Assembly (NCBI RefSeq): GCF_900107965.1
Contig: NZ_FNVU01000004.1
Span: 248,001 to 312,000 of the forward strand
Length of the DNA stretch: 64,000 bases
From: Actinacidiphila yanglinensis
Lineage (GTDB): Bacteria > Actinomycetota > Actinomycetes > Streptomycetales > Streptomycetaceae
Reading direction: 5' to 3'
The notes beneath the pieces were generated by a model, which ran no database searches, was not told the origin of the DNA, and was given only the letters and a program-made list of their open reading frames with translations. Shown here piece after piece: positions 3,901-20,074 of this stretch. Every line of letters starts with the position of its first letter. Position 1 is the stretch's first letter. Made by a program: the position numbers and the translations under genes.

Positions 3901-4442
3901 GCGTCGAAGTACCACTCCAGGGTCAGCAGCCGCGCCTCGACCAGGTGCGCCGCCAGCGCCCGCAGCCGGTCGGACCGCAGCGGAACGTCCGTCAGCGGGT
4001 CGCCGCGCCACAGGGGCAGCGCGGCCCCGCACTCGGTGAGCACCGTGGTCCAGTCCTCCGCGCGGTGCGCCACCCGGGCGGCCGCGTGGTGGCCGAGGAA
4101 GGTCCAGACGTCGAACTCGCCGTCGGCGACGTCCAGGACGTACCCGGACGGCGCGGCCCGCAGCCGGGAGCCGTCCCGGCCCTCCTCGCGCAGCACCCGC
4201 CGGAGCCGGGCGACGTGGTTGTGCAGCGAGGCGGTGGCGGTGGTGGGCGGGGTGTCGCCCCACAGCGCGGACTTGAGGCTGTCCAGCGGCACCGCGCGGC
4301 AGGGGGTGGACAGGAGTGCGGCGAGCAGTGCGCGCACCTTCTCCGAGCCGATCGGCCGGGCCGGCTCCTTGCCGTCGTCCCGGTCGCCGTCACCGTCGCC
4401 GTCGACGGAGACCGTCACCGTGCCGAGCAGGCCGAACCGCAT
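993..4442 (-). CDS. AfsR/SARP-family transcriptional regulator (SARP-NB-ARC-TPR)
   Basis: A 1149-residue pathway or global regulator. Domains in order: an OmpR-like winged helix (about residues 1-95, MRFGLLGTVTV onward), a bacterial transcriptional activation domain (about 96-245), a long Ala/Gly/Pro/Arg-rich linker (about 250-455), a nucleotide-binding NB-ARC module with P-loop GMGGIGKTAL (Lys near 489) and Walker B-like LLLMLDNAG, then TPR-like helical repeats to the C-terminus. This is the AfsR layout; the Streptomyces family protein of about 990 residues is shorter, mainly through its linker. The start at 4442 is chosen because AAGGAGG lies 7 bases upstream (4450-4456), although the frame is open further upstream. 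No biosynthetic cluster adjoins it, so it may be a global or distant-target activator. ATP binding and oligomerisation are inferred from the family. Confidence 0.92.
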   Translation of the reverse strand: MRFGLLGTVTVSVDGDGDGDRDDGKEPARPIGSEKVRALLAALLSTPCRAVPLDSLKSALWGDTPPTTATASLHNHVARLRRVLREEGRDGSRLRAAPSGYVLDVADGEFDVWTFLGHHAAARVAHRAEDWTTVLTECGAALPLWRGDPLTDVPLRSDRLRALAAHLVEARLLTLEWYFDAELALGRHQGLAAELAGLAAANPLRETFHRQLMLVLHRTHRQAEALAVYHVLRRTLVDELGVEPDSAVQAAYREILAEPALIRCAPAAPPAPLGASRAGDSGEEIRSGLAQAARAAGVALPPRRTGRAGGEAFGRTGPPGRGGPAAQGSAAARGARGNGTDGGEVTDGSDGAARADGPGDAARTSTTPDRAGAPERFAPRHGPATAGPATSTSAGSGPRPRPDPETPPGPETATDPAATPAPASPSAPARAGAPHTRRPCPSQLPADTPDFTGRSAELATLLAALRGDGDPAERGPRVAVVSGMGGIGKTALAVRAAHLLRAEFPDGQLYADLRGFGAGSARCPSDLLARFLGDLCPDGQPLPEDPDDRAVLWRDALHGRRLLLMLDNAGDAAQVVPLLPGGGDVALVVTSRRTLAELPGATRLALDPLTVGEQRELLVALCGSRRVAAEPEAAEGVLAACGGLPLALRIAGARMAARPNWPLTALAERLDGPDGSRLHALSTGGLAVQDTFAMSYVAMRDSPIAAERAVARAFRMLGVWPGHGVDPSAAAALLGRESGPAADDVLEALVDAHLLQTPRPGRYGFHDLVGEYAAVCAFAELAPEERRSAVRRITVWYAASVAASLAVLAPEGHPLPPLEEQPVVPAAGFGSDEEALGWCVRELPAIRESIRTAIAHGWPDVAWRTAAGLFGYAQAYWWTGEWTACLEEAMACVTAGGDVLGQAWMHSRLGVAHCMAERYDVGLGHLHVARARFEAAGDQRGVAAVLTNLTGLHSGTGDYDLALDYGRRSLELHRSLGDFDRVATVLGNLGDTHLQAGDPKAAEDCFREALAAWRARGSVVSMARALGSLGEAQLALGRPAEAVEALTETLALLDRLGDRATAADVLEILGRAHLARGDRGAARACWEEAVDLARAHRLTAKEEAALRGLAGLGPDGPHDARADIGSGTSTDRGAGPGTEARTGTGGKQG

Positions 4443-6016: not shown

Positions 6017-7210
6017 GTGGTGTCGTCGGGGGCGGGGAGCGGGACCGTGCGGGGTCAGGACGCGGCGGACGGGACGGGGAGCGGATCCGGGCGCCCGGGC
6101 CACACCGGAGGGCACTCCGGCCACCGGCGCGAGGCCGTACCGCCGGAGTTCGTGGCCGGTTTCGCCGAGACGCTCGCGGAGATATCCCGCAGCTGCCGGA
6201 CCCTCACCCGCACCGAGCGCGAGAGCCGCCGCGTGCTGGGCGAGCACGCCGCGGACTCCGGTCTCTCGCTGCGCGACCTGACCGCCGTCCACCTCGCGAC
6301 GGCCCGGCGGGCCTGGTCGCACCTGCCCGGTGTGGCCGCGGCCCGCGACGCGGCCGAGCTGCGCCAGGTCGGCAGCGCCGTGCTCGCCGCGCTCGAGATC
6401 GGTATCGACGCCCTCGCCGAGGGCCATGCGCGTGCCCAGCGGCACGCGGTGCGCCGCGCCGAGGAGGCCCGGCGGGCGTTCGTCGACGACCTCCTCTACG
6501 GCCGCAGCGACCCGGGCCGGATCGCCGAGCAGGCGGAGGGCTTCGGACTGCGGCTGGCCGACCGTCACCTCGTCGCGGTGGCCGCACCGGCGGCCGGTGA
6601 CACGTATCACGAGACCCACCCGCTGCTGCACCGGATCGAGCGCGAACTGGCCGGCCGTTTCGGCGACCACGACCTGCTGGTCGCCCCCAAGGACGGCCGC
6701 ATCGTCTGCGTCGCCCCCACGGAGCAGCGGCCCGCCCTGGACGCCTTCGTCAAGCTCGCAGCCGCCGGGCGGGTCGCGCTCAGCCGCCCGCACAGCGGCG
6801 CCGTCGGGGTGGTGCGCTCCTACGAGGAGGCGCTCAGCACCCTCGACCTCGCCGCACGGCTCGGTCTGGAGGCGCCGGTGCTCAACGCGGTGGACCTGCT
6901 GGTCTTCCCCGTGCTCATGCGTGACCGCGCCGCGATGGCCGACCTGGTCCGTACGGTCCTCGGCCCGCTCGCGCAGGCCCGCGGCGGCGCCCGGCCGCTG
7001 GTGGAGACCATCTCCACCTACGCCGCCTCCGACTACGTCAACGCCGAGGCGGCCCGCCGCCTGGACCTCAGCGTCCGGGCGCTGTCCTATCGCCTGGAAC
7101 GCATCGCCGCGCTCACCGGCTTCGACCCCGACGACGCGCTGCAGCGCTACACCCTGGAGACCGCCGCCCTGGGCGCCCGCCTCCTCGACTGGCCCGCCCG
7201 CGAGATCTGA
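6017..7210 (+). CDS. PucR-type helix-turn-helix transcriptional regulator
   Basis: About 397 residues. The C-terminal 60 residues (YVNAEAARRLDLSVRALSYR onward, ending DDALQRYTLETAALGARLL) match the PucR C-terminal helix-turn-helix that ends this family. The middle (about 190-330) looks like a GGDEF-derived CdaR-type sensor domain, and the N-terminal part has helical segments with LSLRDLTAVHLATARRAW. Family members regulate purine, sugar-acid or stress genes and often act on neighbours. The frame begins at a TTG at 5981; two GTG codons at 6017 and 6020 after a G-rich stretch are more likely starts, so the exact N-terminus is uncertain. It is followed after 36 bases by the convergent marR gene. 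The target is unknown. Confidence 0.85.
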   Translation: MVSSGAGSGTVRGQDAADGTGSGSGRPGHTGGHSGHRREAVPPEFVAGFAETLAEISRSCRTLTRTERESRRVLGEHAADSGLSLRDLTAVHLATARRAWSHLPGVAAARDAAELRQVGSAVLAALEIGIDALAEGHARAQRHAVRRAEEARRAFVDDLLYGRSDPGRIAEQAEGFGLRLADRHLVAVAAPAAGDTYHETHPLLHRIERELAGRFGDHDLLVAPKDGRIVCVAPTEQRPALDAFVKLAAAGRVALSRPHSGAVGVVRSYEEALSTLDLAARLGLEAPVLNAVDLLVFPVLMRDRAAMADLVRTVLGPLAQARGGARPLVETISTYAASDYVNAEAARRLDLSVRALSYRLERIAALTGFDPDDALQRYTLETAALGARLLDWPAREI

Positions 7211-7246
7211 CGGATCCGACGCCCGGGCAGCGGCGCCCGCGGCCGG

Positions 7247-7819
7247 TCAGCAGGCGCCGGCCATCCCCCGCGGGTCGTCCGAGCCGTCCTCCTCGGCCGC
7301 CGTGCCGCGCTCCGCGTCGCCCGCCTCGCACGCCGCCGCGTCCTCCGCGCGGGCGGTGTCGCACTCCGTGCGCAGGCCCGAGCTGATCGCGCGGCCGATC
7401 TCGCGGAGGGTGTCGAGCTGCTCCGGGGTCAGGACGTCGAAGAGGTGCTCGCGGACCGCGGTGACGTGGCCGGGGGCCGCCGCGGCGAGGGCCTCGAAGC
7501 CCGCGGGGGTGAGCGCGCAGATCCAGCCGCGTCGGTCGGCGTCGGCGGGCCGGCGGTGCACCCAGCCGTTCTTCTCCAGGGCGGCGACGGCGTGTGAGAG
7601 TCGGCTGCGGGAAAAGAGCGAGGCATCGGCCAGCTCGCTCATCCGCAGGCACCGCCCCGGGGCCTCGGAGAGCCGGACCATGATCTCGTAGTACGCCATG
7701 GGCATGCCGGAGTCGCGGCGCAGCTGCCGATCCACGTACGCGGAGAACTCCACGCTCGCGGTCATGTAGGCCCGCCAGATCTCCTGCTCCCCGTCGGTCA
7801 GCCAGCGCACGTCGTCCAT
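7247..7819 (-). CDS. MarR-family regulator, divergent from yceI
   Basis: A 190-residue winged-helix protein. The MarR core runs from about residue 30 to 145: MRLSEAPGRCLRMSELADAS leads into the recognition helix SRLSHAVAALEKNGWVHR and the beta-wing DADRRGWICALTPAG. The last 35 residues are acidic and low in complexity. MarR dimers bind palindromes and release them on ligand binding or Cys oxidation. The gene is transcribed away from yceI across a 102-base gap holding an 11-base inverted repeat with half-sites 21 bases apart (7839-7881), a likely operator controlling both genes. The inducing signal cannot be read; YceI targets elsewhere respond to solvent or redox stress. Confidence 0.88.
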   Translation of the reverse strand: MDDVRWLTDGEQEIWRAYMTASVEFSAYVDRQLRRDSGMPMAYYEIMVRLSEAPGRCLRMSELADASLFSRSRLSHAVAALEKNGWVHRRPADADRRGWICALTPAGFEALAAAAPGHVTAVREHLFDVLTPEQLDTLREIGRAISSGLRTECDTARAEDAAACEAGDAERGTAAEEDGSDDPRGMAGAC

Positions 7820-7838
7820 GGCTCCAGCATACGTGTGG

Positions 7839-7881
7839 TTGAACTTTCAATACCAGCGCAGTATGGTCAGTGAAAGCTCAA
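7839..7881. promoter_or_regulatory. Inverted-repeat operator between marR and yceI
   Basis: TTGAACTTTCA (7839-7849) and TGAAAGCTCAA (7871-7881) are inverted copies with one mismatch, separated by 21 bases. The region is AT-richer than its surroundings and lies between the divergent starts at 7819 and 7922, so it probably overlaps both promoters and binds the MarR protein. Confidence 0.65.
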
Positions 7882-7921
7882 CAACCAGCACTACCCCAGT
7901 TTCCCTTTCAAGGAGCCCCTG

Positions 7922-8473
7922 ATGAGCACGCAGACCGAAGTGATCGACGGCTACGTCGCCGGCACCTGGAAGATCGACACCGTGCACTCCGACGTGTCCT
8001 TCTACGTCCGCCACCTGGGTGTCTCGAAGGTCCGCGGTCACTTCGCGGCCTTCGAGGGCACCATCGTCACCGCCGAGGACCCGCTGGAGTCCACGGTCAA
8101 CGCGGTGATCAGGACGGACTCGGTGAGCACGAACAACGAGGGCCGTGACACCCACGTGCGCAGCGCCGACTTCCTCGACGTCGAGCAGTTCCCGGAGCTG
8201 ACCTTCTCCTCCACCGGCATCCGGGCCAAGTCCTCCGAGGTCTTCGAGGTGGACGGCGACCTGACGCTGCACGGCGTGACCAAGCCCGTCACCCTCGCCC
8301 TGGAGCTGAACGGCTTCGGCACCGGCTTCGACGGCACCGTGGTGGCCGGCTTCTCCGCCGCCACCGAGATCAGCCGCGGCGAGTTCGGCGTGACCGGCGG
8401 TCCCGCCGGTGCCGCGGTCAGCGACAAGATCCGGATCGCCCTGGAGATCGAGGCCGCCAAGGCCGACGCCTGA
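7922..8473 (+). CDS. YceI-family polyisoprenoid-binding lipocalin-like protein
   Basis: A 183-residue YceI-domain protein with the hallmark start YVAGTWKIDTVHSDVSFYVRH and the motifs VRGHFAAFEG, SADFLDVEQFPELTF and VDGDLTLHGVTKPVTL. YceI proteins form an extended lipocalin-like barrel holding an isoprenoid or other amphipathic lipid; E. coli YceI is periplasmic, but this protein has no signal peptide and is probably cytoplasmic, as is usual for actinobacterial copies. AAGGAG lies 7 bases before the ATG. The divergent MarR gene and shared operator suggest induction by a stress ligand. The ligand is unknown. Confidence 0.93.
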   Translation: MSTQTEVIDGYVAGTWKIDTVHSDVSFYVRHLGVSKVRGHFAAFEGTIVTAEDPLESTVNAVIRTDSVSTNNEGRDTHVRSADFLDVEQFPELTFSSTGIRAKSSEVFEVDGDLTLHGVTKPVTLALELNGFGTGFDGTVVAGFSAATEISRGEFGVTGGPAGAAVSDKIRIALEIEAAKADA

Positions 8474-8487
8474 GCGGTTCCCGGTCC

Positions 8488-8578
8488 GGTCCCGGGGTGT
8501 CCCCGGGACCGCCGATCCCCTTCCGGCGACGGCCGTCGTACGCGCGTGGTTCAGCGCCTACGACGGCCGTCGCTTTTT
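8488..8578 (+). terminator. Double hairpin terminator after yceI, with T-tract
   Basis: Two stem-loops follow the yceI stop. The first, GGTCCCGGGG (8488-8497) and CCCCGGGACC (8501-8510), has a 3-base loop. The second is a perfect 15-base stem, 8526-8540 and 8559-8573, followed directly by TTTTT (8574-8578). A T-tract is uncommon in this genome and makes this the clearest intrinsic terminator in the window; it isolates yceI from the flotillin unit downstream. Confidence 0.88.
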
Positions 8579-8705
8579 GGTTGCACACGGATCAGGACGT
8601 CTCGGGGCCGCCAACTCTGCCGGAACGCGGCAATGCCGTAGGGGCCCCGACGCTGCCACGATCTGTGCGGCAGGACGGAACGGCAGGGGGGGAGGCGCAG
8701 ACGGC

Positions 8706-9542
8706 ATGGGGGAGTTCGCCGATGTGTGCCTCGGCTTTCCGACCGTCCTGTTCGGAGGGGCGCTGGTGGTCGTGGTCGGCTTCTGGGGCCTGGTGCTCGT
8801 CGGCGGCGCCGACGCGCACGGCCCGGGCCACCACGGCGCCGGTGGCGGCCACGGCGTGGGACACGGGGGTGCCCACGGGGCCGCCCACCCCGCCCCCTCC
8901 GGCGGACACGCAACGGCCGCCCACGGCCACGTCCACGCCGGGCACGGGCCCGTTCATGGGCAGGGCCACGGCCACGCGCAGGACCATGGCCGCGGCGACG
9001 CCCGGCCCGGCGGGGACGCCGCCACCGGGCACGGCCTGCTGGCCACCGCGGGACTCGACGGCGTCCCCGTCACCGTCGTGCTCTCCCTGCTCATCGCCCT
9101 CGGCTGGTTCCTGAGCCTGGCCGGCTCGGCCGCCCTGGACGGTGCCGGGCTGCACGGCGCCGGCCGCGCCGTCGCCGACGTCGCCCTGATCGCCGCCGCG
9201 CTGGTCGGCGCCTGGCTGCTCACCTGGGTGCTGGTGCGTCCGCTGCGCCACCTGTTCCCGTACGCGCTGCCGCCCTCCCGGGAGGACTTCGTCGGCCGGA
9301 TCTGCGTGATCCGCACCGGCACCGTCACCGAGCGGTTCGGGCAGGCCGAGGTGACCGCGCCCGACGGCTCGACCGCGGTGGTCCAGGTCCGGCGCGCCGC
9401 ACAGGACACCGACGGCATCCTGGCGGCCGGCCGCACCGCGCTGCTCTACGCCTACGACCCGCAGGGCGAGTTCTTCTGGGCCGCGCCCTACGAGGACCCG
9501 GCGGGCGGCGCACCGCCGCCGGGCGCCCGCGCGCTGCCCTGA
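8706..9542 (+). CDS. NfeD/YqiJ-like membrane protein with His-rich loop and OB-fold domain
   Basis: A 278-residue protein, first gene of the flotillin unit. It has three predicted membrane helices (about residues 11-33, 119-139 and 155-176) and a C-terminal OB-fold-like domain (about 190-260, FVGRICVIRTGTVTERFGQAEV) as in YqiJ and NfeD, the usual partners of flotillins. Between helices 1 and 2 lies a low-complexity segment (about 36-110) with 17 His in 75 residues, mostly Gly-His and Ala-His, a probable divalent-metal-binding or pH-sensing loop that YqiJ lacks. If the OB-fold is cytoplasmic, the three-helix topology places this loop in the cytoplasm too (inference). The start at 8706 precedes the first helix directly; upstream in-frame sequence crosses the yceI terminator and is not coding. 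The flotillin gene follows after 82 bases. Confidence 0.82.
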   Translation: MGEFADVCLGFPTVLFGGALVVVVGFWGLVLVGGADAHGPGHHGAGGGHGVGHGGAHGAAHPAPSGGHATAAHGHVHAGHGPVHGQGHGHAQDHGRGDARPGGDAATGHGLLATAGLDGVPVTVVLSLLIALGWFLSLAGSAALDGAGLHGAGRAVADVALIAAALVGAWLLTWVLVRPLRHLFPYALPPSREDFVGRICVIRTGTVTERFGQAEVTAPDGSTAVVQVRRAAQDTDGILAAGRTALLYAYDPQGEFFWAAPYEDPAGGAPPPGARALP

Positions 9543-9624
9543 CCGCGAGGAGTCCCCTCCAGCCGGCCCGGCGCCACCGTCCCACCCACTCATATCCGCT
9601 TCACCGCATCGAGGTTGATCCGTC

Positions 9625-11799
9625 ATGGATGCCACCGTCATCGGGATCGGCGTGCTGGTCGCCGTTCTCCTGCTCATCGCCCTGGGCGTGGCCGTCACCG
9701 TCACGAAGCTGTTCCGGAAGGTCTCCCAGGGGCAGGCGCTGATCCTGTCCAAGTCCAAGCACGTGGACGTGACCTTCACCGGCACCGTCGTGCTGCCGGT
9801 GCTGCACAGCGCCGAGGTGATGGACATCTCGGTGAAGACCATCGAGATCCAGCGCACCGGCCGCGAGGGCCTGATCTGCCAGGACAACATCCGCGCCGAC
9901 ATCCACCTGACGTTCTTCGTCCGGGTCAACAAGACCAAGGAGGACGTGATCAAGGTAGCGCAGGCCATCGGCACCGACCGGGCCAGCCACCAGGAGACGT
10001 TGCAGAAGCTGTTCAGCGCGAAGTTCTCCGAGGCGCTCAAGACGGTCGGCAAGCAGCTGGACTTCGTCGACCTCTACACCCACCGCGAGCACTTCCGGGA
10101 CCAGATCATCCAGGTCATCGGCACGGACCTCAACGGCTACCACCTCGAGGACTGCGCGATCGACTTCCTGGAGCAGACCCCGCTCACCCAGCTCGACCCG
10201 GCCAACATCCTCGACGCGCAGGGCATCCGGAAGATCACCGAGCTGACCGCGATCGAGCACGTGCGCACCAACGAGTTCCAGCGCACCGAGCAGAAGGAGA
10301 TCACCCGGCAGAACGTCGAGGCCCGCGAGACCATCCTGGAGCTCGAACGCCGCCAGTCCGAGGCCGAGATCAAGCAGCGCCGCGAGGTCGAGACGCTGCG
10401 GGCCCGGGAGGAGGCGGTCACCGCGAAGGTCCAGGAGGAGGAACGCCTCGGCGCCCAGGGCGCGTTCCTGCGCACCGAGGAGCACCTGGGGGTGCAGCGG
10501 GAGAACCAGGCCCGCGAGGTCGCCGTCGCGCAGAAGAACCGCGAGCGGGTGATCGCGGTGGAGAACGAGCGGATCGAGAAGGACCGGGTGCTGGAGGTCA
10601 TCGCCCGCGAGCGGGAGACCGAACTGGCCAGGATCTCCAAGGAGCGTGAGGTCGAGGGCGAGCGCCGGGACGTCGCGGACGTGGTGCGGGAGCGGATCGC
10701 GGTGGACCGGACGGTCGCCGAGCAGGAGGAGTCGATCAAGCAACTGCGCCTGGTGCAGGAGGCCGAGCGGGAACGGCAGGCGCTGATCATCACCGCGGAG
10801 GCGCAGGCCCAGGAGCGGCTGGTCAAGGACATCAAGGCCGCCGAGGCCGCAGAGCAGGCCGCCCAGCACAAGGCCCGCGAGTCGCTCACCCTGGCCGAGG
10901 CCCGCAGGCGCGCCGCCGAGCTGGACGCGGACGCGAAGGTGCGGCTCGCCGAGGGGCTGCGCGCGGAGGCGGCGGCCCAGGGGCTCGCCGAGGTCGAGGT
11001 GCGCGAGCGCAGCGCCGCTGCGATCACCAAGGTCGGCGCCGCCGAGGCGGAGGCGACCACGGCCCGGCTGAGGGCCGAGGCCGAGGGCGCCCGGGCCAAG
11101 TCCCTTGCCGCGGCCGAGGGTACGGCCGCGCAGGCCACCGCGGACGCCGCGATGATCGGGGAGCGGCTGAAGGCGGAGGCGGCCGGCCTGACCGAGAAGG
11201 CCGCCGCGATGGCAGCCCTCGACGAGGCGTCGCGTGGGCACGAGGAGTACCGGCTGCGGCTGGCCGCGGAGAAGGACGTCCGGCTGGCCGGGCTGGAGAC
11301 GCAGCGGCAGATCGCCGAGGCGCAGGCGACGGTGCTGGCCACCGGGCTGGAGAAGGCGGACATCAGCATCGTCGGCGGCGAGAGCGTCTTCTTCGACCGG
11401 CTGCTGGGCGCGGTCAGCGCGGCCCGCTCGGTGGACTCGTTCGTTGCCAACTCCGCTACCGTGCAGGTGATGGCGGCGCCGTGGCTGGACGGGTCGGGGC
11501 GGTTCACGGAGGACGCCACCCGCGTGCTGTCCTCGGTCGGCACAGGCGGGATGAGCGTGGCGGGCCTGCTCGGCCGGCTGATCGCGAACGGCGGCCCGCA
11601 GGCCGGCGGACTCCAGCAACTGCTGGACCAGGCACGGGCGATGGGCATTGCCGACACCACCCTGGCCGGGATCGCGGGCGGGGCGGGAGGCGCCGTGTCC
11701 CCGGTGTACGCGGGCGCCGACGGCAACGGCATCAGCAGCGCGAACGGCAACGGCGGCGCGGCCGGCGGTGCGCAGGCGAACGGAACCGTGAAGAAGTGA
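9625..11799 (+). CDS. Flotillin-family (YqiK-type) membrane scaffold protein
   Basis: A 724-residue flotillin. An N-terminal membrane helix (about residues 5-25) is followed by the SPFH/Band 7 domain (about 30-200, VSQGQALILSKSKHVDVTFTG... DLNGYHLEDCAIDFLEQTPL). A long charged coiled coil (about 225-560) is rich in Glu, Arg and Ala with flotillin-type Ala-Glu repeats, and the C-terminal 130 residues are Gly/Ala/Asn-rich. Flotillins oligomerise at the membrane and organise fluid or ordered microdomains; with NfeD-type partners they form large cages. The start ATG follows a gap of 82 bases from the OB-fold protein. The stop codon overlaps the GTG of the ATPase gene (GTGA at 11796-11799), so scaffold and ATPase are translationally coupled and probably work together. 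Confidence 0.93.
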   Translation: MDATVIGIGVLVAVLLLIALGVAVTVTKLFRKVSQGQALILSKSKHVDVTFTGTVVLPVLHSAEVMDISVKTIEIQRTGREGLICQDNIRADIHLTFFVRVNKTKEDVIKVAQAIGTDRASHQETLQKLFSAKFSEALKTVGKQLDFVDLYTHREHFRDQIIQVIGTDLNGYHLEDCAIDFLEQTPLTQLDPANILDAQGIRKITELTAIEHVRTNEFQRTEQKEITRQNVEARETILELERRQSEAEIKQRREVETLRAREEAVTAKVQEEERLGAQGAFLRTEEHLGVQRENQAREVAVAQKNRERVIAVENERIEKDRVLEVIARERETELARISKEREVEGERRDVADVVRERIAVDRTVAEQEESIKQLRLVQEAERERQALIITAEAQAQERLVKDIKAAEAAEQAAQHKARESLTLAEARRRAAELDADAKVRLAEGLRAEAAAQGLAEVEVRERSAAAITKVGAAEAEATTARLRAEAEGARAKSLAAAEGTAAQATADAAMIGERLKAEAAGLTEKAAAMAALDEASRGHEEYRLRLAAEKDVRLAGLETQRQIAEAQATVLATGLEKADISIVGGESVFFDRLLGAVSAARSVDSFVANSATVQVMAAPWLDGSGRFTEDATRVLSSVGTGGMSVAGLLGRLIANGGPQAGGLQQLLDQARAMGIADTTLAGIAGGAGGAVSPVYAGADGNGISSANGNGGAAGGAQANGTVKK

Positions 11800-14700
11800 G
11801 CGAGCAGGTCTCCACGCCGGACACGCCGGACGCCCCGGGCGCGTCCGGCCGGTCGGACGGCGGCCCCGCACCCGAGGCGGCGGGGCCGTCCGGCGACGCC
11901 TACCAGGTGCTGCGCACCCGGCTGTCGGGCGTGGCACGGGAGCTGGCCCGCCGGGCCGAGGCGCTGAACGCGGCCCGCCAGGAGGTCTTCGGGTCGACCG
12001 AACTGCGGCTGGCCGGCGCCGCGCGGCTGCGCACCGCCCGCCCGGCGCTGCCCGCCGACATCGCCGCGGTCGGGCCCTACCTGCTCTTCGCGGCCAACCC
12101 CGCCGACGTCGAGGACGTCGGGGATGTCGCGGACGTGTTCCGGGCGCACCGGGCGGACCGCCTCGACGGAGACCTCGCGAACGGGGCTCCCCCCAAGAGG
12201 GACCTCGCGGAGGGCGACGCGGGCCCGGGCGGCGACCGCGGCCCGGCCGGGCTGCTGGACGACCCCGGCTTCGTCCGCGACTTCCGCGAGCTGTATCGCT
12301 ACTACCGGCAGACCCGGGTGGTGCGGGTGCGCGCCGGGGAGAACCGGGTGCTCGCCGTCTTCCGCACCGGCGCGGCCGCCGGCGACGTCAAGGTGCTGGG
12401 CTGGCGGATCGGCCGGGACGGCCGCTGCGCGTACGAGGGGGCCTCCCGCGAGGAGCCGGCCGAACCGCCGGAGACCGTCCGGTGGAGCGCGGTCGGCCGC
12501 GAGGCGTACGTCCCCGGCCGCCACCCGCACATCGCCCTCGCCGGGCCCGACGGCGGCACCCTCACCCTTGACACCACCGGCGGCGCCCTCACTTTGCGTA
12601 CGGGCGGCGCCGTGCACGAGGAACCCGTCGACGACGCCCTCCAGTCGCTGGCCGACGCGGAGGTCGGCTCCGCGGGCGCCGGGCCGCTGGTGCTGCTGCG
12701 GGTCCGCCCCTACCGGGAGGCCGCCGCCCGGTACTTCGCGGTCAACACCCGCACCGAGCAGGTCGAGCGGATCGACGCGCTCGGCCAGGTCTGCCTGCGG
12801 CTGCCCGACGACCAGGGCGTGGTCTTCCCCGGCGGCTACGTGCTCGCCACCGGCGGCACCCGCACCTTCGACCTGGCAGGACTGTCAGGTCCGACCGGAC
12901 CCGCCGGACCGGCCGGTGCCGGCGACCGCGCGGAACCGGCCGGCGACGCGGGTGCGCAGGCGGCCGGCAGCGCCGAAGTGACCACGTCCCGGCTGGAGTT
13001 CGAGCGGGCGGTACGGTCCGCCGACGGCGAGGACGTCCTCTACGTCTTCCATGCCCCGGCCGACGGCCGCCGCCTGCTGCTGCCGTACAACCTCATCCGC
13101 AAGGAGGCGGCCGCGCCCCTGCACGTCCAGGGCAGCGCGCTGTACGAGGACGGCACCCTGATCACCCTCCGCCCGGCCGAGGGCGGCGAGCCCGGCCGGG
13201 TGCACACCCTCCAGCGCTGGCACACGCCCTTCCTGTCCGACACCTACGCCGCCGCGCGGCCGGTCGGTGACGGCCCGCTGGCCCGGATCGGCAACCCCGA
13301 CCTGGTCCGCGCGGTCTCCGACGCGCTGTCGGTGGCCCGCGCCGCGCTGGCGCCCGAACCCGCCGCCGCCGTGTACGAGGCGCTGGGCGCGGCCGCGGAG
13401 CGCGTCCTGGACCGCCACCACTGGCTCGCCGACCCGGCCGCGCAGGACCTCGCGGGACCGCTGACCGAGGTCCGTGACACCGCGCGGCAGGTGCTCGCCG
13501 AGTACGCCCGGGTGCGGGAGTCGACCGCGCGGGCCGCCGAGGCCGCCGGCGAGGTGGAGGCGCGGATCACCGCGTTGGGCCGCCGGGTGCGCGGCGAGGC
13601 CGCCGCCACGGCGGACGAGTGGGTCACCCGCCTCACCGAACTGCGCCGCACCCAGGGACGGTTGGCGACGCTGCGGGAGATGCGGCACGCCGACCGGGGC
13701 CGGCTGGACGCCCTGGACACGCTGCTCGCCCGCGAGCTGGCCGAGGCGTCGGCCCGCGCCGCCGGGCACTTCGCCGACCCGGGCGCCTTCGACGGCTACC
13801 GGCAGCGGGTCGCCGATGTGGCCGCACAGGTGCCGCAGGCCGCGACCGCCGCCGCCACCGAGCCGCTGGCCGCGACCCTGAACGAGCTGGCGGAGGGGCT
13901 GGCCACCGTCACCGGGACCGCCGGCACCCTGGAGATCGCCGACGCCACCGTCCGTACCCGCATCCTGGCCACCTCCGCCGACGTGCTCGGTGCGGTCAAC
14001 CACGCCAGGGCCCTGCTGGCCGCCCGCAGGAGGGAGTTGCTGGCCGCCGAGACCGGCGCGGAGTTCGCCGCGCAGAGCGCCCTGCTCGCGCAGAGCATCG
14101 GCGCCGCCCTCGACGCGGCCGGTACCCCCGAGGCGTGCGAGGAGCAACTCGGCCGCCTGCTGGTGCAGATCGAGAACCTCGCCACCCGGTTCGCGGCCGA
14201 CGAGGAGCGGTTGGCGGCCCTGGACGCCCGCCGCGAGGAGGTACGGGACACCTTCGCCGCCCGCAAGCAGGCGCTCACCGACGAACGCGCCCAACGCGCC
14301 CAGCGGTTGACCGGCAGCGCGGCCCGCCTGCTGGACGGCATCCGGCGCCGCGCGGGCGCACTCGGTTCCGCCGACGAGATCCACACCTACTTCGCCTCGG
14401 ACCCGCTCGCCACCGAACATCGACGCATCGCGGCGGAGTTGACGGACCTGGGCGACCCCGCCCGGGCCGCCGAACTCGGCGCCGCGCTCGCCGCGGCCCG
14501 CCAGGCCGCCGTACGCGACCTGCGCGACCGCCTCGACCTCTACGAGGACGGCGGCGCCGCGATCCGCCTGGGCCGGCACCGCTTCGCCGTCAACACCCAG
14601 CCCCTCGATCTCGCCCTCGTCCCGCACGCGGACGGCCTCGCCTTCACCGTCACCGGCACGGACTACCTCGTCCCGGTGACAGACCCCTCCTTCGCGGCCA

Positions 14701-16817
14701 CCCGTGCCTTCTGGTCCCGCCCGCTGGCCTCGGAGTCCCCCGACCTGTCCCGCGCGGAGTTCCTCGCCGGCGGGCTGCTGCTGGACATGCTCGCCGCGGG
14801 CGGCCCCGTCACGGACGCGGACGAGGTGCGCGGGACCGTCCGGGCGGCCGTCGCCGCACGCGCCTCCGAGGGCTACGAGCGCGGCGTGCACGACCACGAC
14901 GCGGCCCTGCTCCTCACCGCGCTGGCCGAACGCGCTCTGTACGCGGGGACGTTGCGCTACCCGGCCGCCACGCGGGCGGGCGCGCTGCTGTTCTGGACGT
15001 ACGCGGCCGAGCCCGCTTCCCGGTCGGCGTGGACCGCCCGCGCCCGCTCGCTCAGCCGGGCGCGGTCCGCGTTCGGCGGCGCGGGGGCCGGCCGGGCGCT
15101 GGACGCGCTGGCCGCCGAGATCGGCTCGGCCGCACGGGAGTTCCTCGTCGCGGCGGGGCTGGGCGAGCTGACCGGGCCGACCGGTCGGATCGCAGCCCCG
15201 TCCGTCGACGACATGCTGGTGGGGGAGTACCTGGTGGCCGAACTCGCCGCCGGGCGGGACGGGTTCGCGATCGGCCCGGGAGCCCGCGCGGCGGTGGCAC
15301 GGCTGACCGGCGCGCTGGGCGGCCCGGACGCGGTGCCGTACAAGGAACTCGGCGCCGATCTCGACGCGCTCGGCGGCGCGCGGGACGGGGGGCTCGCCGC
15401 CCGCTGGCAGCTCGCCCGCGCCTGGCTCGGCCCCTTCGCCGGGGAGGGCCCCGGCCAGGCGGACACCGGCGACACCGCCGACCTGGTGGAGGCCGCGGCG
15501 GGCCTGGTCTGCGGCGCGGGGACCGTACGGTACGCGGTGGACGCCGAGGTGCAGCTCACCGTGCGCGGGCTGCTCGCGGCGCATCCCCGGGCCGTGGACG
15601 GCGCGATGACGCTCCGGCTGGACGAACTCCTGGCCCGGGTACGGCGCTTCGCGGCCGAGGAAGTGCCGGCCCACCAGGCGTACCAGCGGCACCGCACCGC
15701 CGTGGTCGCCGCCGAGCGCGCCCGGCTCGCCCTGGACGGCTACCGGGCCCGCCCGCCGGCCGGGTTCGTCCGCAACCGGCTGCTGGACGAGGTCTACCTC
15801 CCGCTGGTCGGGGACAGCCTGGACAAGCAGTTCGGTCCGGCCGGCGGCCTGCTGATGCTGCTGTCGCCGCCCGGATACGGCAAGACCTCGCTGGTGGAGT
15901 ACGTGGCGAGCAGCCTCGGGCTGGCGCTGGTCGCCGTCTCCGGTCCCGCCCTGGGCAACGGCACCACGTCCCTCGACCCGGACCGCGCGCCGGACGCGGC
16001 CGCCCGGCGCGAGCTGGAGAAGGTACGGCTCGCCCTGGAGATGGGCTCCAACGTGCTGCTGTACCTGGACGACATCCAGCACGCCTCGACGGAGTTCCTC
16101 CAGAAGTTCATCCCGCTGTGCGACGCGCAGCGCCGGATCGAGGGACCCGGCGGCGCGTACGACCTGCGCGGCAAGCGCTTCGCGGTCTGCATGGCGGGCA
16201 ATCCGTACACCGAGTCCGGCGCGCTCTTCCGGGTGCCGGACATGCTCGCCAACCGCGCCGACGTGTGGAACCTGGGGGACGTCCTCGACGGCAGGCAGGA
16301 CCTGTTCGCGCTCAGCTACGTGGAGAACGCGCTCACCGCCAACCCGGTGCTCGCCCCGCTGGCTGCCCGCGACCGCGCCGACCTCGACCTGCTCGTGCGG
16401 CTTGCCGCTGAGAACCCGGCCGACCCGGCCGCCCGCGCCGCGGATCTCGCGCACCCGTACTCCGAGGCCGAGCGGACCGAGGTCCTGGCGGTCCTGCGGC
16501 ACCTGCTGCGGGCCCGGGACACGCTGCTCGCCGTCAACGCGGCGTACATCGCGTCCGCGACGGGTGCGGCTTCCGGCGCCGCCGGTACCGGGGAGCCGTT
16601 CCTCCTGCAGGGGTCGTACCGCTCCATGAACCGGATCGCCGGGCGGATCACCGCGACGATGAACGCGGCGGAGGCCGAGGCGGTGATCACCGACCACTAC
16701 CGCGCCGAGGCGCAGACCCTCGCGCACGGCGCCCAGGCGTCCCTGCGCCGGCTCGACGGGATCCGGGGTGACCTGGCCCGGCGGGAAGGCCCTACGGTGC
16801 CGCATCCGGGTCGGTGA
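11796..16817 (+). CDS. Giant DUF3686-type coiled-coil AAA ATPase (annotated elsewhere as DNA repair ATPase)
   Basis: A 1673-residue protein. The N-terminal 450 residues (YLLFAANPADVEDVGDVADVF, DPGFVRDFRELYRYYRQTRVV) resemble the DUF3686 region of proteins labelled ATPase involved in DNA repair. A long helical/coiled-coil middle follows (about 540-1000). The C-terminal AAA module has Walker A LLSPPGYGKTSLVEY (Lys near residue 1363), Walker B NVLLYLDDIQHAS (about 1420), a sensor-like CMAGNPYTESG and MoxR-like features. The GTG start overlaps the flotillin stop by 4 bases. The DNA-repair label is probably only from coiled-coil similarity; the coupling to flotillin and an NfeD-like protein favours a membrane-associated remodelling or stress role. 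Its 3' end overlaps the convergent reductase gene by 26 bases. Confidence 0.85.
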   Translation: MSEQVSTPDTPDAPGASGRSDGGPAPEAAGPSGDAYQVLRTRLSGVARELARRAEALNAARQEVFGSTELRLAGAARLRTARPALPADIAAVGPYLLFAANPADVEDVGDVADVFRAHRADRLDGDLANGAPPKRDLAEGDAGPGGDRGPAGLLDDPGFVRDFRELYRYYRQTRVVRVRAGENRVLAVFRTGAAAGDVKVLGWRIGRDGRCAYEGASREEPAEPPETVRWSAVGREAYVPGRHPHIALAGPDGGTLTLDTTGGALTLRTGGAVHEEPVDDALQSLADAEVGSAGAGPLVLLRVRPYREAAARYFAVNTRTEQVERIDALGQVCLRLPDDQGVVFPGGYVLATGGTRTFDLAGLSGPTGPAGPAGAGDRAEPAGDAGAQAAGSAEVTTSRLEFERAVRSADGEDVLYVFHAPADGRRLLLPYNLIRKEAAAPLHVQGSALYEDGTLITLRPAEGGEPGRVHTLQRWHTPFLSDTYAAARPVGDGPLARIGNPDLVRAVSDALSVARAALAPEPAAAVYEALGAAAERVLDRHHWLADPAAQDLAGPLTEVRDTARQVLAEYARVRESTARAAEAAGEVEARITALGRRVRGEAAATADEWVTRLTELRRTQGRLATLREMRHADRGRLDALDTLLARELAEASARAAGHFADPGAFDGYRQRVADVAAQVPQAATAAATEPLAATLNELAEGLATVTGTAGTLEIADATVRTRILATSADVLGAVNHARALLAARRRELLAAETGAEFAAQSALLAQSIGAALDAAGTPEACEEQLGRLLVQIENLATRFAADEERLAALDARREEVRDTFAARKQALTDERAQRAQRLTGSAARLLDGIRRRAGALGSADEIHTYFASDPLATEHRRIAAELTDLGDPARAAELGAALAAARQAAVRDLRDRLDLYEDGGAAIRLGRHRFAVNTQPLDLALVPHADGLAFTVTGTDYLVPVTDPSFAATRAFWSRPLASESPDLSRAEFLAGGLLLDMLAAGGPVTDADEVRGTVRAAVAARASEGYERGVHDHDAALLLTALAERALYAGTLRYPAATRAGALLFWTYAAEPASRSAWTARARSLSRARSAFGGAGAGRALDALAAEIGSAAREFLVAAGLGELTGPTGRIAAPSVDDMLVGEYLVAELAAGRDGFAIGPGARAAVARLTGALGGPDAVPYKELGADLDALGGARDGGLAARWQLARAWLGPFAGEGPGQADTGDTADLVEAAAGLVCGAGTVRYAVDAEVQLTVRGLLAAHPRAVDGAMTLRLDELLARVRRFAAEEVPAHQAYQRHRTAVVAAERARLALDGYRARPPAGFVRNRLLDEVYLPLVGDSLDKQFGPAGGLLMLLSPPGYGKTSLVEYVASSLGLALVAVSGPALGNGTTSLDPDRAPDAAARRELEKVRLALEMGSNVLLYLDDIQHASTEFLQKFIPLCDAQRRIEGPGGAYDLRGKRFAVCMAGNPYTESGALFRVPDMLANRADVWNLGDVLDGRQDLFALSYVENALTANPVLAPLAARDRADLDLLVRLAAENPADPAARAADLAHPYSEAERTEVLAVLRHLLRARDTLLAVNAAYIASATGAASGAAGTGEPFLLQGSYRSMNRIAGRITATMNAAEAEAVITDHYRAEAQTLAHGAQASLRRLDGIRGDLARREGPTVPHPGR

Positions 16818-17611: not shown

Positions 17612-20074
17612 TCAGTGCTGCCCGGCGTGCCGCTTGCGGCTCACGTAGGCGAACACCGCACCCGTGCCGACCAGCAGGCCGACGAGGGCGAGGATCTCCG
17701 CCATGCCGGACAGACCGGTGTCCGCGAGGGTGCCGGACGGACTGCCGCCCTGGGCCGAGAGCGACGGTCCCGAACCGGTCGGCGGAACCGAGGTCGGCGA
17801 CCCGGAGGACGGCGGAGCGGACGTCGGCGGTGTCTTCGCCGGGATGTAGACGCCCGCGTCGATCGTGTGGTCGACGCCTCCCGGCTCCGCCGGCGCGGTC
17901 ACCGGCGCGGACCCGTCGCACAACTCGCCCTTGGTGGGCGGGGTCACGTTGGAGTCGTGCGCCCGGTCACTGCCGGCCCGCGGGAGGGTGAAGCGCAGCT
18001 CGGCGGCCGCCGGGGTGCCCGGCACCTTGCTGGTGTCCGAGGTGCACGTGTCGAACTCGACGGTGTACTTCGCGCCCGGCGTCAGCTGGTAGGCGGCGCC
18101 GACCCCGCCGAAGTAGTACTCGCCGTCGGCGTCGGTCGTGGTCGTGGCGACCTGCTTGCCGGAGGAGTCCAGCAGGTTGACCGTCGCGTCCGGCAGCAGC
18201 ACCTGGCCGGGGTCCTGGATGCCGTTGTGGTCGCCGTCGTACCAGACCACGTTGCCGATCTGGATCGGGGCGTTCGCCGCGGCGTACGCGATGTCGCCGA
18301 GGCCGCCGGCCTTGCCGAAGCCGTTCTGCTCCTGGCCGACGAACTGGTAGGCGTTCGCGGACGTGTTGTTGCCCGGGCCCTGACCGGTCGTGAGGTCGTG
18401 GTAGCCGGTGCCCGAGGTCTCGACGTTGACGGTCGGGTCGAACTCCGTGCTGACGACGGTCTGTTCGCGCGGGATGTGGGCCACCGCGCCGAGCGCGGTC
18501 TCCTGGTGCCCGCCGACGTAGAAGTCGCCCGGGAAGTACTCGACCACGCCGCTGTCCTCGCCGTCGTCGTTGCCCGCGGTGGCGTGGTTGGGGCAGTTGC
18601 CGGTGCCCTCCCACGCGTACCCGCCGGCGGCGTCGGCGCAGGCCATATTGATGTCACCGCCGGACATGCCGATCTCGGCCGTGCTGTTCAGCGGGCGGGG
18701 GTCCTGCCCCTTCGCGCTGAGGACGTCCATGAACCGGTCGCGGAAACCGAGGACCATCGAACCGTCGTTGGCGAAGGCGAGGCCGGACAGCTCCGGTTGC
18801 GGGTCGATGAAGGCGTTGCCCAGCTTGTGCTGGTCCCAGGTGGCGAGGTCGGTGTTCCACGGGTTCCAGTGGGTGGCCTGGTCGGCGTCACCGGCACCGG
18901 TGAAGACCGTCCCGCGCTTGTCGGTGAGCGTGTGGGTCAGCACGCTGCTGAACCGCTTGCCGTCGTAGGCGTAGACGACGGCCTTCAGGTCCGCGCGCTG
19001 CTGGGTGCTCTCCGCGTCGCAGACCCCGCCCACGTACAGGGTGTTGTCGTGGACGCTGAGGGCGGACGGCCGCCAGTCGCCGGCCGTCGCGCACCCGGGG
19101 TCGGGGATCGGCACCGTCGACTCGGGCGAAGAGGCGGTGTCCCCGGTCGCGTCGAAGCTCACCAGGCTGCGGGTGAGCAGGTTCACCGCGTACAGCGTCG
19201 AGCCGTCCTCGGACAGGGCCAGACCGCCGATGCTCTCCTTGCCCGGCGCGTTGGTGAACCCGGGGTCCTTGATCATGTCCGCGGTGTCGTGCGGCGTCAC
19301 CGCGGCGCCCGGCACCGTCGCGAACAGCTTCGCGCCCCCGCCGTCGGCCGGCACGGTGTAGATCGCGCCACCGCCGTCCGGTCCGTACGGGGCGTAGCGG
19401 CGGGCGAACGCGCTCTGGAACAGCCGGCTCCGGTACCGGTCGTACGCCAGCCCGAAGGTGGTGCCGACCTCCGCCTGCGTGTCCAGCGTGGTCGGGCACG
19501 ACGCGTCGGTGGGGCAGGTGCCCCGGACGTTCGTCCCGAACGCCACCAGGGCGCGGGTGTCCGTTCCGTTCGCACCGTTCTGGATCGGCACGAAGTACCG
19601 CGAGTCCGGGAGCGTGTAGTCGGCCGCGTCCCAGACCCCGGTGATGACCGAGGCGTCCTGGCCGCCCGAGACGTCCACGAAGCCGGTGAAGCTGTCGAAG
19701 TGGTTCGCCGCGGTCGAGGCGGGCGCCGCCCGCAGGTAACCGTCGTAGGGCGCCGGCACGCTGACGTCGACGCGGTAGCGGCCGCCGGTCAGCTCCGCCG
19801 ACGGTGCCACCACGACCTTCCCGGTCGCGTCCGTGGTGCCGGTGACGTGATGGCCGGCCAGGTCGGCGACGTCGACTTTCATGCCCTGCTGGGGCACGTC
19901 CGTGGTCGCGTTGATCACGCCGGTGCCGAGGAAGTCCCGCAGCACCTCGACGGTCAGCGTGCCGTCAGAAGTCGCGGCGCCGGCCTGCCCGGCGCTCGTG
20001 ATGATCGTGCCGGTGGCGGTGCCCATCAGGAGGAGACCCGAGAGCCCCACCCGCACCAGCCCGTGTAATGGCAT
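17612..20074 (-). CDS. Cell-wall-anchored (LAXTG) surface protein with SdrD B-like domain
   Basis: An 820-residue secreted protein. The signal peptide covers about residues 1-33 (MPLHGLVRVGLSGLLLMGT...). The mature part begins with a Cna-B-like beta domain, continues into a large beta-propeller-like region (about 100-480, repeated blades such as YDRYRSRLFQSAFARRY and LALSEDGSTLYAVN), and has an SdrD B-like domain near 595-700 (IGNVVWYDGDHNGIQDPGQ, DADGEYYFGG). A Thr/Pro/Ser spacer then leads to the sorting signal LADTG (783-787), a hydrophobic helix and the tail SRKRHAGQH. LAXTG is the motif used by actinobacterial class E sortases. The start at 20074 has GGA 7 bases upstream. A role in adhesion or aerial-surface structure is likely but unproven. 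No sortase gene is nearby. Confidence 0.85.
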   Translation of the reverse strand: MPLHGLVRVGLSGLLLMGTATGTIITSAGQAGAATSDGTLTVEVLRDFLGTGVINATTDVPQQGMKVDVADLAGHHVTGTTDATGKVVVAPSAELTGGRYRVDVSVPAPYDGYLRAAPASTAANHFDSFTGFVDVSGGQDASVITGVWDAADYTLPDSRYFVPIQNGANGTDTRALVAFGTNVRGTCPTDASCPTTLDTQAEVGTTFGLAYDRYRSRLFQSAFARRYAPYGPDGGGAIYTVPADGGGAKLFATVPGAAVTPHDTADMIKDPGFTNAPGKESIGGLALSEDGSTLYAVNLLTRSLVSFDATGDTASSPESTVPIPDPGCATAGDWRPSALSVHDNTLYVGGVCDAESTQQRADLKAVVYAYDGKRFSSVLTHTLTDKRGTVFTGAGDADQATHWNPWNTDLATWDQHKLGNAFIDPQPELSGLAFANDGSMVLGFRDRFMDVLSAKGQDPRPLNSTAEIGMSGGDINMACADAAGGYAWEGTGNCPNHATAGNDDGEDSGVVEYFPGDFYVGGHQETALGAVAHIPREQTVVSTEFDPTVNVETSGTGYHDLTTGQGPGNNTSANAYQFVGQEQNGFGKAGGLGDIAYAAANAPIQIGNVVWYDGDHNGIQDPGQVLLPDATVNLLDSSGKQVATTTTDADGEYYFGGVGAAYQLTPGAKYTVEFDTCTSDTSKVPGTPAAAELRFTLPRAGSDRAHDSNVTPPTKGELCDGSAPVTAPAEPGGVDHTIDAGVYIPAKTPPTSAPPSSGSPTSVPPTGSGPSLSAQGGSPSGTLADTGLSGMAEILALVGLLVGTGAVFAYVSRKRHAGQH

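Follow-up and report, generated by a model that had tools for sequence, protein, structure and literature searches.

We describe a three-gene unit in a 64,000-nucleotide stretch of Actinacidiphila yanglinensis DNA (contig NZ_FNVU01000004.1, positions 248,001 to 312,000; hereafter the window, whose own numbering we use). Three genes on the + strand follow a strong hairpin and encode an NfeD/YqiJ-like membrane protein, a flotillin-like SPFH protein and a DUF3686 ATPase. Comparison across genomes indicates that the three form a real, co-inherited unit, and by gene content this trio is a member of an operon class that has already been predicted in print, of which it would be the short, PspA-free form. 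On balance, we favour the view that two of the proteins form an SPFH/YqiJ scaffold and that the third, an AAA+ remodeller dedicated to it and non-proteolytic, acts there in envelope or membrane stress. The unit is laid out as follows:

8525 to 8578, + strand: terminator-like hairpin 3' of a YceI gene, setting the unit apart (folding energy against shuffles)
8706 to 9542, + strand: NfeD/YqiJ-like membrane protein, 278 residues (open reading frame, ATG start)
9625 to 11799, + strand: flotillin-like SPFH protein, 724 residues (open reading frame, ATG start; family profile against YqiK)
11796 to 16817, + strand: DUF3686 ATPase, 1673 residues (GTG start overlapping the flotillin stop; Pfam)

The flotillin and ATPase reading frames share four bases (GTGA), and this coupling, along with the gene coordinates and lengths given in an earlier reading of the sequence (the original prediction), matches the open reading frames throughout. 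The same reading had proposed a terminator upstream, and there is indeed a hairpin at 8525-8574, followed by five U, with a folding energy of -44.5 kcal/mol (z -6.8; none of 200 shuffles equally stable). A simple terminator scan does not list it; a mismatch inside the stem is the presumed cause.

The flotillin and the ATPase are inherited together

Among 61 relatives, flotillin and ATPase occur in the same genomes, both in 28 and neither in 33; across 396 genomes of the phylum, both are found in nine and neither in 387. Gene order is similarly stable. In the first set, tblastn recovers the three genes in the same order in 26/26 fetched loci, the ATPase of one (L031) running off its contig; these loci, of 20 kb or less, together with the window account for the 28 trio-positive relatives except G015, which was left out. 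Ten further loci all carry the flotillin, and eight (by clustering) or seven (by tblastn) a YqiJ-like gene. Among loci from the genome_contigs collection (the best 80 of 588 confirmed, all actinobacterial), the flotillin lies upstream of the ATPase in 78, and the other two start inside the ATPase at a contig end. Finally, ten loci from 12 ATPase-bearing records of a plasmid collection (some of these records being of chromosome size) have the flotillin upstream of the ATPase without exception and a YqiJ-like gene in nine; they come from Pseudomonas, Hymenobacter, Deinococcus, Proteus, Halomonas, Vibrio, Photobacterium and Streptomyces, so that flotillin/ATPase adjacency extends across four phyla, including Bacteroidota, Deinococcota and Pseudomonadota. 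That the genes are one unit with a conserved neighbourhood, as had been supposed from the window alone, is thus supported by exact flotillin/ATPase co-occurrence, and the association of the ATPase with YqiJ/YqiK-like genes, which the original prediction had singled out for checking, is conserved in all four phyla.

Two trio-negative genomes of the same genus (G005 and G020) retain the flanking TatA, PucR, MarR and YceI genes, and no called gene there matches the trio. Absence between conserved flanks in two close relatives looks as if the trio is gained or lost as one unit. One explanation might be that we are dealing with a defence system or some other accessory stress island. The patchy distribution across the phylum would be in line with this, as would the presence of the unit on pQBR103 and on plasmid records of Deinococcus, Hymenobacter and Streptomyces. 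However, the ATPase is found in 27 of 35 genomes of the window's own genus (the window included), and PADLOC returns only weak partial matches, confined to coiled-coil and P-loop stretches. A phage collection holds no match to the unit, although that bears little on defence. We consider an accessory island highly improbable.

A propeller-like domain and a MoxR-type motor are predicted in the ATPase

The ATPase matches the Pfam family DUF3686 (PF12458) with 443.7 bits against a gathering cut-off of 25, along with DUF7902 and a weak AAA match; no protease domain is found by Pfam. Searches of the three window proteins with Pfam, NCBIfam and PADLOC yield little besides DUF3686. AlphaFold2 models were built for the ATPase only, in two halves (residues 34-905 and 890-1665), each from an alignment of 49 rows, comprising the window protein and 48 of 80 loci chosen to differ by more than 20%. 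Mean pLDDT (predicted local distance difference test) is 87.7 for the first half and 87.3 for the second. In the models a short helix is followed by a beta-propeller-like domain, then by an extended run of helices and finally by an AAA+ module:

12000 to 13229, + strand: beta-propeller-like domain of the ATPase, residues 69-478 (AlphaFold2 model; WD40 propellers are the best Protein Data Bank (PDB) rows)
15717 to 16781, + strand: AAA+ motor of the ATPase, residues 1308-1662 (AlphaFold2 model; CbbQ/NorQ; conserved motifs)

Most of the 50 fold rows for the N-terminal model are propellers, with Z near 9, which is moderate. The top row for the propeller-like domain is the WD40 domain of DCAF1 (Z 9.4, root mean square deviation (rmsd) 6.4, 218 residues aligned), and the first six WD40-type rows reach Z up to 9.4 at rmsd 4.8-6.5 over 206-224 residues. 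For the motor, VIA-align ranks CbbQ first (6l1q; Z 16.4, rmsd 4.1, 251 aligned), with NorQ at Z 13.9-15.5 and dynein and midasin next. Foldseek places ClpA first, with RuvB and Lon at similar E-values and RuvB just after CbbQ and NorQ, and a PDB sequence search with the ATPase gives matches around the P-loop, led by Rix7/VCP-type proteins. By the closer structural alignment, the modelled motor would be nearest to the MoxR-type proteins CbbQ and NorQ. It resembles them in its AAA+ fold, but their solved chains comprise only 231-267 residues, whereas in the window protein the motor is roughly the C-terminal fifth of 1673 residues.

The motor carries what we take to be a Walker A motif (PPGYGKT, 1358-1364), a Walker B motif (DDIQ, 1425-1428) and a sensor residue (N1469); R1487 is a candidate arginine finger. 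Across 124 ATPases, a count that includes duplicate loci, the Walker A pattern is present in all 124, Walker B in 123, sensor 1 in 120 and the arginine-finger stretch in 121. The modelled AAA+ module, the long helices and these conserved motifs bear out the earlier description of a 1673-residue protein with a C-terminal AAA motor. The trio occurs twice in one genome, G186, at L060 (about 6174-11051, - strand) and at L062; in one of these copies the ATPase is called as two frames of 996 and 576 residues, reflecting a frameshift, a split gene or a sequencing error.

Databases name this protein "DNA repair ATPase", and we should ask whether it is simply a DNA repair protein, its flotillin neighbour being incidental or anchoring repair at the membrane. 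The name and the Pfam title suggest as much. RuvB is also matched weakly, over a stretch of some 35 residues at the P-loop, and its chains figure in the Foldseek output for the motor; in addition, a LexA-family regulator gene lies upstream of the Hymenobacter operon, on the other strand. Several observations argue against this model. First, the ATPase is co-inherited exactly with the flotillin. Second, no DNA-repair Pfam family occurs in ten neighbours from the window, ten from distant loci and ten representatives of recurrent families, nor is there one among the annotated neighbours of those plasmid-collection loci that were looked at. Third, the closer structural alignment puts CbbQ/NorQ, rather than RuvB, at the top. 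A role in DNA repair therefore seems very unlikely, and the suspicion that the label misleads gains from both the flotillin co-inheritance and the lack of a DNA-repair gene among the scanned neighbours.

The flotillin appears to belong to its own SPFH clade

The window flotillin matches no Pfam family at E<=0.1, neither Flot nor Band_7, whereas E. coli YqiK matches both. Its membership of the SPFH group is nonetheless indicated by relatives: a flotillin 46% identical to it (in L069) matches Band_7 at 2.3e-7, and the profile of its family aligns with YqiK at 28% identity over 274 columns (E 5e-25). The C-terminal flotillin domain, Flot, goes unmatched in the window protein and in the four relatives scanned, and PDB sequence searches return no relative of the window protein. 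Residues 211-570 are free of proline and carry 8-16 charged residues in every 30, a pattern as expected, by composition, of a long coiled coil. The original prediction of an SPFH scaffold with a coiled coil of about 330 residues is therefore backed in its first part by the relation to YqiK, and in its second by a stretch whose make-up fits.

In the plasmid collection, 309 records match the flotillin, and the top 12 are exactly those 12 that bear the ATPase (36-75% identity); the other 28 among the matches listed reach at most 34.6%. This looks like a separate SPFH clade going with the ATPase, and within the sets searched the window flotillin would seem to belong to a clade found only alongside DUF3686. 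At both ATPase loci of another genome, G240 (L064, on a contig shared with L106 from Streptomyces aureus, and L065), the flotillin appears in separate pieces.

The small membrane protein is the least constant member

Hydropathy places three transmembrane segments in the NfeD/YqiJ-like protein, at residues 14-32, 120-138 and 159-177, with a loop between the first two (36-118) that holds 17 histidines; its C-terminal region resembles the OB part of YqiJ/NfeD. Pfam detects no family at E<=0.1, hence neither PF07290 nor PF21001, and the best PDB sequence match of a YqiJ-like profile has an E-value of only 0.6. Directly compared, a profile of window-type relatives matches E. coli YqiJ weakly (A3; E 0.0011). 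The same profile matches one built from YqiJ-like proteins of other phyla at E 1.2e-35 (A6), which in turn matches E. coli YqiJ at E 1.5e-5, so that the window protein is, by sequence, related to YqiJ via intermediates from other phyla. Most loci of the genus have the histidine-rich loop, as do isolated ones elsewhere (e.g. L098 from Actinomadura), but most loci from Streptomyces or other families do not. The loop is thus, on this distribution, a lineage-specific insertion, and metal binding would not be the core job of the protein. As a consequence, the earlier picture of a histidine-rich, presumably OB-fold membrane protein fits the window gene in its histidines and its YqiJ relation, but its histidine-rich character does not extend to the family at large.

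A recognisable YqiJ-like gene is present in 91 of 113 loci (L042 excluded, one duplicate locus still included), making it the least constant of the three. On a Streptomyces globosus plasmid (L160, 5484-12551), flotillin and ATPase are followed by nhaA, with no recognisable YqiJ-like gene.

Relation to described systems

The window had been put forward as holding an undescribed system. This does not stand: Ravi et al. 2024 (PMC11237479), in its operon section, predicts an operon of a flotillin, an AAA+ protein with coiled coil and beta-propeller, and a YqiJ/YuaF protein, with and without PspA, and proposes that it acts in assembly at the membrane. The three gene types are the same, as is the ATPase architecture (propeller, coiled coil, AAA+), and from architecture and gene order we infer that the "novel AAA+" protein of that section is DUF3686. 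The composition of the long form given there matches the Hymenobacter operon. The window differs in having no PspA nearby, in the histidine-rich loop of its YqiJ-like protein, in lacking a Pfam Flot match and in having a nearby PucR-type regulator, which that operon section does not mention. Hinderhofer et al. 2009 describes flotillins paired with NfeD genes, in passages that mention no such ATPase; nor is one mentioned in passages of a P. aeruginosa SPFH paper and of a paper on Shewanella SO1377.

In the open-licence PMC literature, we found no experimental test of the operon class, no paper on DUF3686 or on "DNA repair ATPase" together with flotillin, and nothing on flotillin, NfeD, PspA and ATP-grasp in combination. 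The MoxR-type assignment of the motor, strict co-inheritance and a PucR-type regulator of the trio were not found there either. A 2009 amidoligase paper from the Aravind group reportedly touches related operons.

Neighbouring genes point to membrane stress

What lies next to the trio varies by lineage. On pQBR103, genes for YjfI, PspA, a rhomboid protein, DUF2491, DUF350, DUF1190 and glutathionylspermidine synthase precede it, and in Hymenobacter a Tir-type chaperone gene and PspA do so. PLD and TelA genes lie 3' of the ATPase in Vibrio, a TelA gene in Photobacterium. In Proteus, LemA and TPM genes adjoin the trio on the opposite strand, and a subset of Streptomyces repeatedly has genes for TrkA, a Na/H exchanger, CBS and TerB close to it. 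These neighbours point to membrane, ion and toxic-anion stress. The link to PspA has some precedent in Bacillus subtilis, where an SPFH protein is needed for bringing PspA to the membrane (PMC8581546, abstract).

A PucR-type regulator often accompanies the trio in Streptomycetaceae

Upstream of the hairpin lie the following genes:

6047 to 7210, + strand: PucR/CdaR-type regulator (GGDEF_2 and HTH_30; Pfam)
7247 to 8473: MarR gene and YceI gene, between the PucR-type regulator and the trio

By tblastn, 69 of 125 loci have the regulator close to the trio (L042 and L064, which are on the same contigs as L075 and L106, were excluded): upstream and co-directional in 28, upstream and divergent in 34, downstream and convergent in four (L043-L046), downstream and co-directional in three. 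It lies 3.3-7.3 kb from the flotillin/ATPase pair in six of the 69 and nearer in the rest. Another 44 loci lack it although their flanks extend for 3 kb or more to either side; the remaining 12 had less flank. Split by organism name and kinship, the loci have the regulator in 69/82 from Streptomycetaceae (13 lack it despite enough flank, and seven more are too short) and in 0/31 of the others. Its next relative in the window's own genome is 31% identical. All 28 trio-positive relatives have it (in G013 on another contig), but so do five of the 33 trio-negative ones (G001, G005, G017, G020 and G023), and it is therefore not strictly tied to the trio and may have other targets. That it stays close while its orientation varies suggests a functional link, and in Streptomycetaceae the PucR-type protein may regulate the trio. 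Distance correlations over 60 loci are 0.855 (ATPase/flotillin), 0.875 (ATPase/regulator) and 0.868 (flotillin/regulator), species kinship being uncontrolled; we draw nothing from them, nor do we take as proof the Fisher values, which count related genomes as independent.

The MarR and YceI pair separates regulator and trio in most loci of the genus, but nothing lies between the two in L026 and L048, where the regulator comes first. A TerB gene (L092, 4517-4972) adjoins the regulator in a few Streptomyces loci, with TrkA and Na/H exchanger genes near, possibly as part of a tellurite/ion stress island.

A scaffold with its own remodelling motor?

How might the three proteins work together? The reading we favour, a scaffold with a dedicated remodeller, builds on the order and shared inheritance of the genes, on the folds predicted and the ATPase motifs conserved, and on PspA, TelA, PLD, LemA or TPM genes alongside in some distant relatives. 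In this model the YqiJ/NfeD-like and flotillin-like proteins would assemble a membrane-anchored scaffold facing the cytoplasm, perhaps marking out a microdomain, on which the ATPase would dock to form a physical complex through its beta-propeller-like part and long helices. The AAA+ module, probably as a hexamer, would spend ATP on remodelling or dismantling protein assemblies there, without degrading them. Candidate targets are the scaffold itself, PspA polymers where these are present, and damaged membrane complexes. The machine would serve envelope or membrane stress, which might also provide the signal, and in Streptomycetaceae the PucR-type protein may act as the activator that switches the trio on.

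A number of findings weigh against this model. To begin with, the absence of flotillin was established at first look, with few candidates scored per genome (at most 18 in the relatives set and two in the phylum set), and is therefore less firm than its presence. Further, the YqiJ-like gene is unrecognised in 22 of 113 loci (at least four of them cut), and the OB region of the YqiJ-like protein is missing in L060-L062, losses that were called from a simple gene caller and missing tblastn matches; it follows that the complete trio is not always needed. Conversely, E. coli YqiJ-YqiK, whose two genes are related to the window's YqiJ-like and flotillin-like genes and follow one another in the same order, has no adjoining ATPase, so that a flotillin/YqiJ pair can exist without it. 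PspA, too, is unlinked to the trio in the window's relatives. By Pfam PF04012, 60 of 61 relatives have PspA with or without the trio, but it is near the trio in none of the 28 trio-positive ones; ten distant or plasmid records split into two with PspA next to the trio, three with it elsewhere in the record and five without it. The window's own genome has two PspA genes, both on other contigs, and no CesT/Tir-PspA pair in the operon. A small PspA profile run against 126 loci and the window matches in L152 and L153 only, although one of its three leave-one-out controls failed. It is thus unlikely that the named actinobacterial loci have PspA nearby.

This lack of linkage slightly lowers our confidence in a stress remodeller and slightly raises that in a different model, in which the trio acts as a chaperone for the assembly, or in the quality control, of particular membrane complexes, in the way that NorQ and CbbQ are each devoted to a single enzyme, rather than an answer to general membrane stress. 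The closeness of the predicted AAA+ fold to CbbQ/NorQ (Z 13.9-16.4) speaks for such a role, and clients could be encoded by the genes for TrkA, a Na/H exchanger and CBS that some Streptomyces have close to the trio. However, since neighbours vary by lineage, no single client is conserved. The usual partner of a MoxR protein is a VWA gene, and there is none among the Pfam-scanned neighbours. We regard a client chaperone as rather unlikely.

Within the scaffold-and-remodeller reading, a more specific version deserves mention. HflK-HflC and FtsH already combine an SPFH scaffold with an AAA+ protein, FtsH being a membrane protease; the window ATPase likewise goes with an SPFH protein but has no Pfam protease domain. 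One may tentatively picture a third type of SPFH-AAA+ machine, in which a flotillin cage has a MoxR-type motor that is both obligate and non-proteolytic. The beta-propeller would read the target, and the machine would reshape or pull apart membrane-bound polymers, independently of PspA in actinobacteria and under PucR control. We hold this version to be doubtful; were it true, bacteria would have, made of unrelated parts, a counterpart to ESCRT-III/Vps4. Bacterial flotillins have lacked a clear job, and a clade that in the genome sets searched occurs only with its own ATPase offers a defined, testable machine with an energy source, in hosts open to genetic work such as Streptomyces. A corrected name in place of "DNA repair ATPase" would, in addition, remove a misleading annotation.

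Two further genes in the window lie farther from the trio. A large SARP-type regulator (BTAD, NB-ARC and TPR domains) is encoded at 993-4442, and at 17612-20074 there is a gene for an 820-residue protein that has an SdrD_B-like domain and may sit on the cell surface.

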